Positions 2,135-14,420 of a DNA stretch of 23,971 bases are shown piece by piece. Made by a program: the position numbers and the translations under genes. The stretch is taken from the IMG/VR virus record IMGVR_UViG_3300048927_000740, positions 1 to 23,971 of that record; one strand, written 5' to 3'. The notes beneath the pieces were generated by a model. That model did not search any database. It was not told where the DNA came from and saw only the letters and a list, made by a program, of their open reading frames with translations. Position 1 is the first letter of the stretch; each line of letters starts with the position of its first letter. This DNA is from a virus.

Positions 2135-2485
2135 TCAGCTCACAGGAACGGTTAAGGAAAAAGGCTGCGCGCTGTCGGTGCGGTTGCCTGACAGCTCAAC
2201 CACCATTGCGCCGTTGATATCCGACTCAAAGCTGATGGCGGTCAGCTTTACGCGCGGCTCCCATTTCAGGATCGCCATATAGCAGGCCGACATAATCTGC
2301 AGGCGCAGCGCCTCGTTTTGCGGCTGGTCAATCAGGGCGGATAAAAGCGAGCCATACTGGCGGCGCATCACCCTTGAGCCGAGCGGGGTCAGCAGAATGT
2401 CACGCACCGACTGCCGGATGTGATCGAGGTCGGTCAGCGTGCCGCCGGTTTCCCGGTTCATGCCGATATATTTTGCGGTTGTCAT
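2135..2485 (-). CDS. W: Baseplate wedge protein gpW (gp25-like)
   Basis: The 116-residue product is a GPW/gp25 family baseplate wedge protein with lysozyme-like fold ancestry. It is essential for nucleating sheath assembly. The signature stretch LDHIRQSVRDILLTPLGSRV with RRQYGS just after is clearly visible at residues 20-46. The length matches P2 gpW (115 residues). The start overlaps the 3' end of V by four bases, so the V-W pair is probably translationally coupled. Confidence 0.95.
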   Translation of the reverse strand: MTTAKYIGMNRETGGTLTDLDHIRQSVRDILLTPLGSRVMRRQYGSLLSALIDQPQNEALRLQIMSACYMAILKWEPRVKLTAISFESDINGAMVVELSGNRTDSAQPFSLTVPVS

Positions 2486-3066
2486 ATCGGTTCCCCTGTC
2501 TGGCCGCCGCTGTCGCCAGGGTGTTTATGCTTATCCAGAACTTTGCCGTTTGATGAAAGTTTGCCGCCGGTATGCGTCACGTCGCCTTTCATCGTTGCGC
2601 CCTTTGTGACTTCCAACTGCGCAGTTTTGAGCAGCGTTGTGCATTCCACTTCGGGCGAGTCGAACAGGATTTTTACCGCCGCTTTTATGGTTGCTGTCTG
2701 TATGCCGGTTGCGGTCAGCGCGCCGGTTTCCGGCTCGTACTCGATCACCGCGCCGTCAGGAAATGACCAGTGCAGCGCATCGGCCGAGGTAGACGGAGCC
2801 GGGTTGTCATCCGAGAAAATGCCCGGCAGCACAAAGCCGGTATCGAGTTCGCCGCCGAGGCACAGAACAAGCACCTGCTCACCCACTGACGGCGCATTCC
2901 AGGAGCGGGTTTTACCCGCGCGGGCGTTCAGCCAGTGCAGCCAGTTGGTTGTGTTTTTTCCTGTATCGACACGGCATAGCCCGTCGTCGAGATTGACGGC
3001 CGACACTGTTCCGATGCGGATCAGGTTGCGCAGCAGGCGCTGGATTTCAAAAATTTGCTCGTTCAT
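2482..3066 (-). CDS. V: Baseplate spike protein gpV
   Basis: The 194-residue product is the membrane-piercing spike at the tip of the tail tube, a trimer with an OB-fold followed by a beta-helix. The OB-fold region shows SVGEQVLVLCLGGELDTGFV and the helix region contains DGAVIEYEPETG. The C-terminal tip has the HKHPGDSGG motif; H180 and H182 correspond to the iron-binding HxH of the P2 spike. P2 gpV has about 211 residues, so this one is slightly shorter in the middle. No convincing Shine-Dalgarno sequence stands before the ATG at 3066. The upstream DNA is the AT-rich flank of the cargo gene, so the native leader may have been replaced. Confidence 0.95.
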   Translation of the reverse strand: MNEQIFEIQRLLRNLIRIGTVSAVNLDDGLCRVDTGKNTTNWLHWLNARAGKTRSWNAPSVGEQVLVLCLGGELDTGFVLPGIFSDDNPAPSTSADALHWSFPDGAVIEYEPETGALTATGIQTATIKAAVKILFDSPEVECTTLLKTAQLEVTKGATMKGDVTHTGGKLSSNGKVLDKHKHPGDSGGQTGEPI

Positions 3067-3155
3067 GGCAAGATAATGAAGCAGGGCAATTCAAGACACA
3101 AAACCATGTCGTATGGTGGTCTACTAACAAACACAATTATTATTTGGGTGAATGT
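3067..3155. promoter_or_regulatory. Divergent intergenic region between V and the cargo gene
   Basis: These 89 bp separate two divergent starts, so they should hold the late promoter for the V operon (PV in P2) and a promoter for the cargo gene. On the minus strand, TGT and ACC stand 12 bp apart around 3119-3136. This is close to, but not a full match for, the TGT-N12-ACA half-site spacing of Ogr/Delta-activated late promoters. A short hairpin (ACCAT, five-base loop, ATGGT at 3103-3117) is also visible. For the cargo gene, GGTGA at 3147-3151 serves the ATG at 3156. I could not assign a convincing -35/-10 pair. Confidence 0.35.
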
Positions 3156-4223
3156 ATGCAGGATTTTTTTACGTTAAGTAATGTTCAGAATGTGATTGCT
3201 TATTATCGCAATATGATCAATAACCTTACGCCAGAAAACTCTTTTGAAAAAAACAGGAATGAACATATTTCTACAATGCTTGCCTCATTTTCAAGAAATG
3301 CCCAACAGTGGGATCAAAAGGTACAAGTTAACATTAATTATATAGGTGATAGGTTTTATAATGAATTGCAAGCTAAAGAGTCTAACAAAGATTCTGTAGA
3401 TGAGATTTTTTCCAGCTGCTTTAGGTTTTTACTTGAATACTATATAAATATGCCAGGCGAACTTGGCCACCCTTTAGGTTCTATCAAGTCATTTGCCATA
3501 CATCACCTTGATGATTTTACTGATTCTACGAAGAATCAAATCGAATATGCCCTAAGAGAGATGCCAATAAACATCCTTAAAGACATTTTGCATAATGCAG
3601 ACTTTAAAGCTCTAAGAGAATTGCCGTCAATAACAAAACATACTGAAACACTAAAAGAACAGTGGAATACTGAGCTGAAAGACAGGATTGAAAAAATAGA
3701 TGACCTAAAAGAAACCCTGAAAGAATATGAGCATGCTTTCAATTTCGCAGGTTTATTCAAGGGTTTTCTCGACTTAGGCAATAGTAAGAAAAAAGAAGCT
3801 CGCTCAGGAAAAGTACTCCTTGTAGGTTTAGCAATGATGGTTCCAGTGCCTATCATATTTGAAACTGCGTACTTTGTTTTTAGAGACGTAACGTTCGCCT
3901 CAGCTTGGGATTTGATTAAGATATTACCCGCTGCATCAATGTCTTTGTTGTTAATTTACTTCTTTCGAATATCTCTTAGGAATTATAATTCCTTAAAGGC
4001 CCAACTATTGCAAATTGAGTTAAGAAAAACCCTTTGTCAGTTCATACAAAGCTATGCTGATTACAGCAAAGAAATTAAAAGCAAAGAGCATAACCCGCTT
4101 GATAAATTCGAAGACGTTATATTTTCGAATATCATGACTGCTGAAGAGAAAATACCATCGACATTTGATGGCGTTGATCAGCTTGCTAACATGATTAAAG
4201 CCATTAAGGGATCGAAGGGCTAA
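3156..4223 (+). CDS. Unrecognised cargo (moron) protein with two central membrane helices
   Basis: I do not recognise this 355-residue protein. Residues 1-160 look soluble and helical, with a striking GELGHPLGS stretch. Residues about 165-198 are rich in charged heptad-like sequence (probable coiled coil). Two hydrophobic segments at about 219-243 and 253-275 look like a transmembrane hairpin, and a charged helical tail follows. The ATG at 3156 is preferred over an in-frame TTG at 3144, because GGTGA lies about five bases before it. The DNA is much more AT-rich than the flanking V and S genes, and the gene runs against both. Its stop codon overlaps the stop of S. This is the profile of a horizontally acquired accessory gene expressed from the prophage. 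An anti-phage or superinfection-exclusion role is a guess from position and topology only. Confidence 0.85.
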   Translation: MQDFFTLSNVQNVIAYYRNMINNLTPENSFEKNRNEHISTMLASFSRNAQQWDQKVQVNINYIGDRFYNELQAKESNKDSVDEIFSSCFRFLLEYYINMPGELGHPLGSIKSFAIHHLDDFTDSTKNQIEYALREMPINILKDILHNADFKALRELPSITKHTETLKEQWNTELKDRIEKIDDLKETLKEYEHAFNFAGLFKGFLDLGNSKKKEARSGKVLLVGLAMMVPVPIIFETAYFVFRDVTFASAWDLIKILPAASMSLLLIYFFRISLRNYNSLKAQLLQIELRKTLCQFIQSYADYSKEIKSKEHNPLDKFEDVIFSNIMTAEEKIPSTFDGVDQLANMIKAIKGSKG

Positions 4224-4675
4224 TAAGAACGGTTTAGATAATTTATTACATAATCCTCAACCATAATGATGTCATGGCTATTCATTCCTAATAGTTGCCT
4301 AGCCTCGTATCGAACCTCCTTACCTTTACGTGACGGCCGGTCGCGCAGCCCGTAATGATGCACGCGGGCCATGCGCTGCACGTTGCCCGCAAACTCGATC
4401 ACAGCCTCATTCGGGCTGGCCTGTGTTTTCAGGTATTTAGCCGTGCGCAGCTTTGCAAACATCTCGCGCTTTATGCGGCCCTTTTTGCTGCGCACCGGCT
4501 GCGCTTTACGAGGCTTAAACGGCGTGCCGTCAGGTGCCTGCTGGCGCTTGATGTTCTGCTGCTGACTCGCGCGCAGCTTGCGGCCAATACTGCGCGCCAT
4601 TTCTTTACGCGCCGGGGCTGACAGGCTGTTGATAAGCGCCTCCAGACGGTCATTTACCATCTGCAGCTCGCTCAT
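4220..4675 (-). CDS. S: Tail completion protein gpS, possibly with a replaced 3' end
   Basis: The 151-residue product matches P2 gpS (150 residues), a tail completion protein needed for joining heads and tails. The basic central region (RKLRASQQQNIKRQQAPDG, then KPRKAQPVRSKKGR) and HHYGLRDRPSR are characteristic. The first three quarters of the gene are GC-rich. From about 4325 down to the stop the DNA turns AT-rich like the cargo gene next to it, and the two genes meet tail to tail with overlapping stop codons (TAG at 4220-4222 on the minus strand, TAA at 4221-4223 on the plus). The last 35 codons were therefore probably brought in with the cargo cassette. The start overlaps the stop of R. 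Confidence 0.93.
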   Translation of the reverse strand: MSELQMVNDRLEALINSLSAPARKEMARSIGRKLRASQQQNIKRQQAPDGTPFKPRKAQPVRSKKGRIKREMFAKLRTAKYLKTQASPNEAVIEFAGNVQRMARVHHYGLRDRPSRKGKEVRYEARQLLGMNSHDIIMVEDYVINYLNRSY

Positions 4676-12812: not shown

Positions 12813-14420
12813 TTGAATATTCAAAAAGGTACCGTATGGCATACATACACAATGCAGTGCCCAAATATAAAATTATCCAGAAGGATGATCAAGGATGTAA
12901 TGCATAGCCGAATTTTTCTTAGTGCATTCGATTACACTAAAAACCTTTACTATTTTGACGGGGATAGACTAAAGAAAAGCCGCTTAGATTTTCAATTTAA
13001 CACAGACGTAACAGGCTTAAAAGTAACTGGCTTACCGTTTGATAAAAAACACGCAGCATGTGATTTTACGCTTTACTCCACTCACATACTAATCAACAAA
13101 ATATTATCACAAAACAAAATCTTGCAAGCTGACGGAACTTTTTATAGTGATTATGTATTCTTCGCTTTAAAACCATTTTTCTTAGGGTCTGATGACAATC
13201 AAAAAATCATAATTCCAGTGATTAGCATATACGAAAATGGCATAGCTCAAGTAAACTTCATTGATTTAAATGACTATTCCAATACACTCAATGAGTTCAT
13301 TCGAGACAATGTTAATTATCCATTTACAAGACCACACTCCATAATCTGCCCAATTGAATACGCAGTAACATACCTTAGCTTTGACAATAAAATCTCGCCC
13401 CTATTTAGGCGATTATTAGATTATAGATACTACCGAGAAGTAAAACGAACCTTATTAAATAATTCCGAACCACTTGAATATGGAGAGCGATCCCTTAATG
13501 GGAACTATGTTGATTACATGAAATTTAGCAACGCCAAGCATGGTCTAGGTGACATTGCCAGAACCATAGTGGCCTTAGTTTACTCTCATGTTATTAAAAT
13601 AAGTCCTCGCGAGTTCCTTTTAGGCCTTGACGTTAATAAATATTATTCAGGATGGCAAGGCAAACCAAATATATTCATTCTTGAACACGACAATCAGAAA
13701 ACAAAATCATCTTTAAACTGGCTGGAAAATAAAAGAATGATAAATGCATTACTATCTAAGACTATGGGCCTCTATCAAGACAACATCCCACTACGTTATG
13801 AAGATTATCGTATGTTTGATGATTTCAACTACTTTTCTGCGCAAGGCGTTTCTTTGAGCATGCTAACCAGCAAATCCCTGAAACAACTCAACTTAAGTAG
13901 CGGCTTTACCGTTGATAATTTTAAGTGGGATAACTTAGTAAAAAGTGATTTGCGTGAAATCGTCAGCTTCTTCTATGAAGGTACAATCTATAAAATAAAC
14001 AATATAAATAAAAATATTGAGCTGGCGCAGATTAAAAAAGAAATATTCGAATTTGAGGAATGGTTACGACAAACGTCACGCAGATCGGGAGAGATACACA
14101 ACTATGCCTTATCATTGTTCGAACACAACGATATAAAACAAAGTCGAAAAAGCATTGATAGTTTAATTAAATCGAAAATGGAATTGATAAAAATACAGGA
14201 AACCGAGTCCAGTGATAAAGCCAACAACAATTTAACTCTCATATTTGGCTTAATTGCCACAACTTCAATCTCACCCATTTTAGTAAAGCCCGCGTTTGAA
14301 TATTTCAAACTTGATGATTGCCTAAGGGGAACAGTATTCTACGATTTCATTGATGCCATATACTTTGTGATCTCTATCACTTTAGTATATTTATTAATCA
14401 AAATTCTTAACAAAAAATGA
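12813..14420 (+). CDS. Unrecognised cargo protein with two C-terminal membrane helices; candidate phage defence gene
   Basis: I do not recognise this 535-residue protein. About 390 residues look like a mixed soluble domain (FDYTKNLYYFDGDRLKKS near the start, SLNWLENKRMINALLSKT in the middle). A charged helical stretch follows (about 393-470, part probably coiled coil). Two hydrophobic segments at about 474-492 and 510-531 end with basic LNKK. The protein would be anchored in the inner membrane with most of its mass in the cytoplasm. The TTG at 12813 is chosen because GTGGAG is six bases upstream; the next ATG (12852) has no binding site. The DNA is strongly AT-rich and sits between Q and the cos/A region. 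P2-like phages keep variable anti-phage genes there (old and tin of P2 lie in this Q-A interval). Defence is an inference from place and topology. Confidence 0.85.
   Translation: MNIQKGTVWHTYTMQCPNIKLSRRMIKDVMHSRIFLSAFDYTKNLYYFDGDRLKKSRLDFQFNTDVTGLKVTGLPFDKKHAACDFTLYSTHILINKILSQNKILQADGTFYSDYVFFALKPFFLGSDDNQKIIIPVISIYENGIAQVNFIDLNDYSNTLNEFIRDNVNYPFTRPHSIICPIEYAVTYLSFDNKISPLFRRLLDYRYYREVKRTLLNNSEPLEYGERSLNGNYVDYMKFSNAKHGLGDIARTIVALVYSHVIKISPREFLLGLDVNKYYSGWQGKPNIFILEHDNQKTKSSLNWLENKRMINALLSKTMGLYQDNIPLRYEDYRMFDDFNYFSAQGVSLSMLTSKSLKQLNLSSGFTVDNFKWDNLVKSDLREIVSFFYEGTIYKINNINKNIELAQIKKEIFEFEEWLRQTSRRSGEIHNYALSLFEHNDIKQSRKSIDSLIKSKMELIKIQETESSDKANNNLTLIFGLIATTSISPILVKPAFEYFKLDDCLRGTVFYDFIDAIYFVISITLVYLLIKILNKK

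Follow-up and report, generated by a model that had tools for sequence, protein, structure and literature searches.

In phage P2 (NC_001895) the nonessential gene for Orf30 (P2p15, NP_046770) lies between genes S and V in antisense orientation, and is followed by the annotated activator site of the V promoter. In excerpts of two papers (PMC3091744, PMC6823313) the S/V region is one of three regions of moron carriage or horizontal transfer in P2-like phages. Excerpts of two others (PMC9122126, PMC9519451) present the cos-proximal old/tin region and the fun(Z) region as defence hotspots; the words orf30, baseplate and tail completion occur in neither text, so the S/V junction is not covered there under those terms, and orf30 is not named among the matches listed from the post-2020 literature on P2-like defence hotspots. 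The gene analysed here resembles the old/tin and fun(Z) loci in being a moron in a variable region of a P2-like phage, and differs from them in its site. It is like the nonessential orf30 in its position at the S/V junction and its antisense orientation, and the Orf30 sequence also has hydrophobic stretches. However, Orf30 is 261 aa in length and has no detectable sequence relation to the protein studied here; homology between the two was rejected, the hhalign probability being 0.1%. A preliminary description of this DNA had stated that the V/S junction holds no gene in core P2 maps. This is wrong, as Orf30 is located exactly there, and nor is the site unrecognised, given P2 orf30 and the two excerpts that name the region.

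The window (the whole stretch of DNA that was analysed) is a 23,971-base IMG/VR virus record in which the order of the late genes is that of P2. The cargo gene (positions 3156–4223, + strand) is a moron encoding a two-transmembrane (TM) membrane protein of the phrog_9373 family, as judged from the open reading frame, a profile match, hydropathy, AlphaFold2 modelling and dN/dS. The frame begins with ATG and has 355 codons; an alternative in-frame TTG at 3144 would extend the product to 359 aa. The flanking late genes encode the baseplate spike gpV (2482–3066, − strand; Phage_spike E = 1.6e-22, Phage_base_V E = 2.2e-18) and the tail completion protein gpS (4220–4675, − strand; Phage_tail_S E = 3.9e-37). 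Since both of these are on the − strand the cargo gene is antisense to them, and its 3' end converges with that of gpS, the two overlapping by 4 nt. The GC content is 0.34–0.36 in the cargo gene (500-base windows wholly inside 3001–4250) compared with ~0.58–0.63 in the late genes on both sides, confirming that the gene runs against the late genes in AT-rich DNA. It has two of the properties by which a P2-like moron at this site is recognised, namely a location between gpS and gpV and a foreign base composition. A simple scan of the 89-bp gap upstream found no sigma-70 promoter scoring above shuffled sequences. Comparison with an 86% identical copy in another phage (L002) gives dN = 0.066 and dS = 0.72 (NG86), while the gpV genes of the same pair give control values of dN = 0.046 and dS = 0.272. 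The dN/dS of ~0.09 for the cargo gene indicates that the protein is kept, under purifying selection. The gene is real and intact, and beyond chance, as evidenced by its match to phrog_9373, the intact homologues in many phages and bacteria, and dN/dS.

The protein begins with a variable, all-helical domain (aa 8–155; 3177–3620, + strand) that is compact in the AlphaFold2 model and is presumed to be a cytoplasmic sensor. It is followed by a long coiled-coil-like helix (aa 156–219; 3621–3812, + strand) that is continuous in the model to residue 228 and so passes into the first TM helix (aa 220–238; 3813–3869, + strand; 19-residue mean hydropathy 2.08). The second TM helix (aa 256–274; 3921–3977, + strand; mean 1.78) lies within a modelled helix spanning residues 250–307. 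Both TM helices are predicted from hydropathy. Six lysine or arginine residues precede the first (residues 200–219) and four follow the second (271–290), while the loop between them (240–253) has just one. This distribution of positive charge suggests that both termini are in the cytoplasm. Reading frame, hydropathy and model are thus in agreement with the membrane hairpin, helical N-terminal half and coiled-coil-like stretch of the preliminary description. The model, computed from 101 sequences (the window protein and its relatives), has a mean pLDDT of 85.5 and a pTM of 0.56, with a C terminus of low confidence; residues 1–160 predicted alone have a mean pLDDT of 94.8 and a pTM of 0.88.

Conservation is distributed very unevenly along the chain. 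The segment running from the second TM helix to near the C terminus (aa 263–345; 3942–4190, + strand) has a mean pairwise identity of 55% over 5050 pairs, compared with 21% for residues 1–155. Within it Y268, R271, Q283, Q286, R290, L293, C294, F296, Y300, F318, F323, P334 and G339 are invariant or near-invariant among the 101 members. Thirteen residues of the protein are invariant in this set, every one of them at N196 or later. Much of the most conserved segment (~300–345) is also the least confidently folded part of the model, as would fit an effector that oligomerises or switches conformation.

The protein matches phrog_9373 over residues 17–351 (E = 1.7e-79; PHROGs v4) and belongs to that family, which PHROGs annotates as of unknown function. 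The family is not recognised by Pfam, NCBIfam or PADLOC. The window protein has no accepted match in PADLOC (best E = 0.0062), and when all 101 members were searched no more than three matched any one model (best E = 1.6e-4). Weak matches to DUF4953, PDC-S15, NpmA and similar profiles were rejected as being below the cut-off or isolated. No solved structure in the PDB matches the protein by sequence. Searching the PDB by fold with the whole model returned generic long-helix and helical-bundle entries only, the highest VIA Z of 9.9 going to an axonemal protein and the IpaB coiled coil, while the N-terminal domain alone gave a highest Z of 7.2 (a designed repeat protein) followed by 6.2 and 6.1; all these Z values are in the range that is uninformative for helical models, where absence from the results excludes no family. 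A fold search of BFVD gave a single match (E = 7e-4), to an uncharacterised 300-aa phage protein. Remote-homology and structure searching of the kind proposed in the preliminary description therefore places the protein in phrog_9373, with no defence profile or solved fold. We found no assayed activity for any member of the family.

A similar layout is seen in DUF6161 (PF19658), which also has a coiled coil, two TM helices, a conserved helix after the second of these and a C-terminal motif; the DUF6161 proteins compared were L262, L263, L278–L281 and L283–L285. Its Pfam model matches 2 of the 101 family members (best E = 8.6e-5), and not the window protein itself. Under a relaxed setting hhalign aligns the two families collinearly over 238 columns with a probability of 42% (pairwise E = 2.6e-4). 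However, this score stems from the coiled coil, and the half from the TM helices to the C terminus gives 1.5% when aligned alone. The probabilities for the SLATT two-TM effectors PF18181 and PF18160 are 2.4% and 0.3%, obtained from only four and two sequences respectively. No literature on DUF6161 was found.

To survey the occupancy of the S/V junction, we took the best 80 (gpV 87–99% identical) of the 431 relatives of gpV in IMG/VR; 78 of the 80 have both S and V. Seventy of these junctions contain cargo and the remaining eight are empty, with lengths of 72–76 bp. Just seven hold the present family, and 63 hold other cargo; being missing from close relatives or replaced there, the gene is dispensable, as expected of a P2-like moron at this site. 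The occupied junctions have between one and four ORFs of at least 70 aa with a GC content of 0.33–0.40, falling into 36 clusters. They comprise 62 distinct sequences upstream of gpV, so some loci are near-copies. The empty junctions (L208, L214, L217, L223, L249, L255, L260 and L261) have a hairpin-like stretch, GGCGGC...GCCGCC or close to it (GGCAAT...ATTGCC in L260), at the place where the occupied ones have cargo and the dyad described below.

A set of 34 cargo proteins was scanned, comprising 33 of the 35 non-family cluster representatives (two of <100 aa were left out) together with P2 Orf30. Among the 25 of 145 families listed, PADLOC matches include a retron reverse transcriptase (E = 3.4e-156, the best of the set), PDC-S21, beta, AriAB-like (two members) and capP-like. 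The Pfam matches comprise 19 families, including RVT_1, AbiTii, RelA_SpoT, Beta_protein, FRG, Peptidase_M78 and AAA_21/AbiEii. In addition, five of the 70 occupied junctions (L182, L183, L184, L201 and L254) encode [YF]xDD motifs of reverse transcriptases. Most of the cargo families in the survey are unrecognised. These matches, which are set-level and carry no background rate, suggest that genes of antiviral type enter the S/V site alongside many that are unrecognised, and with that same limit the cargo gene shares its site with recognised defence genes. The retron-type cargo at the S/V site of P2-like phages is separate from the cos-proximal locus.

The window has a second cargo gene (12813–14420, + strand), encoding a protein of 535 aa that matches phrog_24946 (E = 3.5e-129) and has no Pfam or PADLOC match. 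It follows the portal gene, which is where published work places the cos-proximal old/tin defence hotspot, and its product also ends in hydrophobic stretches.

Between the cargo gene and gpV there is an activator-like dyad (3110–3133, − strand) located 67 bp before the gpV start, at the position of the annotated V-promoter activator site of P2. It has 10 of the 12 bases of the consensus TGTTTG-N12-CAAACA. Dyads with at least 10 of 12 matches are present in 46 of the 70 occupied junctions, compared with 11 of 350 shuffles and none of the eight empty junctions, though the comparison with shuffles is not an independent one, as the consensus came from visual inspection of these very sequences and shuffling preserved nothing beyond single-base content. 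The dyad begins 66–68 bp before gpV in 49 of the 62 distinct sequences. The best match in P2 has 8 of 12 bases, begins at the same distance from gpV and coincides with the annotated activator site. From these sequences we infer that the cassettes supply the V operon with a late promoter of its own, and this may be how an antisense gene can be accommodated between S and V.

Altogether 161 family loci were collected. The arrangement V–cargo–S is found with the gene antisense in 66 and sense in three, five loci show a single one of the two flanks, and in 87 both V and S are missing from the vicinity. Two Yersinia Peduoviridae phages have homologues at the S/V site that are annotated as hypothetical, and no literature on these phages was found. 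Apart from P2-like phages, carriers of the family include Klebsiella phages and plasmids, most of them ~110 kb in size (4 of 8 phage records and 225 of 227 plasmid records); the three copies sampled from these are antisense to genes whose annotations are primase and helicase or ligase. It is also found in Catenovulum plasmids and in scattered genomes of Pseudomonadota and others. Its presence is patchy, in 2 of 369, 6 of 198 and 20 of 149 genomes (the last being a sample of the genus Acinetobacter), each count including the centre genome, which was picked for having the gene. Nearly all of the 87 non-P2 loci have flanks of higher GC content than the gene itself. No fixed partner was found, no neighbour cluster being common to more than seven of these loci. 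The neighbour scan left aside 15 of the 87 loci; the others supplied 145 neighbour references, of which 130 were scanned once 15 near-repeats or fragments had been removed. The neighbours scanned include housekeeping families and integrases, together with matches to cyclase, HEC-06 and putAbiC.

On a tree of 111 sequences the family has changed between the V/S site and other locations three times, compared with 35 in shuffles. In the main P2 lineage the gene has thus mostly been passed on by descent at this site, but there have been independent arrivals too. One of these is L159, a sense-orientation S/V copy in an Enterobacter P2-like prophage; it is closest to copies from Klebsiella phages and plasmids and nests with the Klebsiella phage-plasmid clade (L005, L008 and L009), an apparent transfer between two types of phage. 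Among phages whose gpV is 89–94% identical to that of the window, the cargo proteins are 68–86% identical in two (L011 and L002) but just 37–40% in six (L050, L025, L078, L051, L023 and L062). Divergent cargo alongside similar gpV points to the swapping of cassettes or alleles.

The cargo gene is a known kind of cargo, and not a new kind of system. The explanation that we favour, at about even odds of being correct, is that a P2-like phage carries, at its S/V (orf30) cargo site, a single-gene moron cassette whose product is a stand-alone inner-membrane anti-phage protein. The site, the company it keeps there, the solitary mobile habit, and the pattern of variable input and conserved output all point to single-gene membrane defence. 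In its favour are the 55% identity of the putative output segment against 21% for the input domain, a dN/dS of ~0.09, and the lone, AT-rich and patchy nature of the gene. Against it, a moron site can hold genes unrelated to defence, most cargo families at this junction match nothing recognised, some members keep one chromosomal place across several species, and the family lies outside PADLOC, NCBIfam, Pfam and the solved structures. The candidacy for exclusion or defence raised in the preliminary description thus gains circumstantial support from the antiviral genes that relatives carry at this junction and from the habit of the gene, while it gains nothing from PADLOC.

The action would probably be of the abortive-infection type, and the layout suggests membrane damage as its output. 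The variable N-terminal domain would sense a cue of infection and signal through the long helix to both the TM hairpin and the strongly conserved segment beyond it. This segment might then oligomerise or rearrange so as to damage the inner membrane, whereby the infection would be aborted and other lysogens protected. The late genes would stay expressed, since the V operon would have its own activator site inside the junction. A wider proposal is that phrog_9373 is a new single-gene membrane immunity family, whose members pair a variable sensor with a conserved effector placed after the membrane helices, and that P2-like phages have at the S/V junction a third defence hotspot, one not described so far. 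Each cassette there would bring a late-activator box to maintain expression of the V operon. We consider this combined proposal a tentative one, with somewhat less than an even chance of being right.

An unlikely explanation is that the gene is a moron serving host physiology or fitness, acting on membrane stress, the envelope or signalling with no effect on phages. The family occupies the same chromosomal place across several species, in six Psychrobacter, five Acinetobacter and four to five Pasteurellaceae loci, which could mean a housekeeping-type role, and has IGPD and other metabolic neighbours. Matches to IGPD account for 5 of the 130 scanned neighbour proteins, and in five Pasteurellaceae loci (L131, L136, L137, L139 and L140) the gene is just downstream of a 361–388 aa gene common to all; together these suggest insertion in the his operon. 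However, the family is patchy even within these genera, is markedly AT-rich relative to the host and is often broken, and its phage site is common to antiviral genes.

Small inner-membrane proteins of prophages often act by superinfection exclusion. It is improbable, however, that this protein blocks the DNA entry or injection machinery of incoming phages in such a manner, i.e. without killing the cell. The TM-hairpin anchor and the occurrence in Klebsiella phage-plasmids as well as P2-like phages are consistent with an entry block. Yet the protein, with its 355 aa and its large helical domain and conserved segment that both face the cytoplasm in the proposed topology, is bigger and more inward-facing than a typical exclusion protein. 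Its presence in bacterial chromosomes away from prophage genes (87 of 161 loci lack V and S nearby, and housekeeping neighbours are seen) is better accounted for by general defence.

A late, structural or lysis-related function in the phage is very improbable. While the gene lies inside the late operons it is antisense to them, the family is present in only 7 of 78 close-relative junctions, and plasmids and bacterial chromosomes also encode homologues. The protein matches no profile for tail, head or lysis functions in Pfam or PHROG; homology to a tail or head protein, named in the preliminary description as grounds for abandoning a defence role, was thus found in neither. That the gene is a non-functional remnant or spurious ORF is scarcely credible and is refuted for the window copy by its intact frame, dN/dS of ~0.09 and the 13 residues invariant in 101 members, although lengths outside 320–420 aa (short or frame-broken copies, several being at contig ends) are found for 5 of the 74 copies at the P2 site and for 13 of the 87 elsewhere.

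The favoured reading, that of a stand-alone membrane protein acting against phages, bears on both the family and its site. P2-like phages, Klebsiella phage-plasmids and scattered chromosomes all carry the family, yet it has no assigned function. If it is protective against phages, it would add a single-gene membrane system that was missed by the defence catalogue searched. The survey of junctions suggests that the S/V site merits cloning screens like those that have been productive at the cos-proximal and fun(Z) sites.
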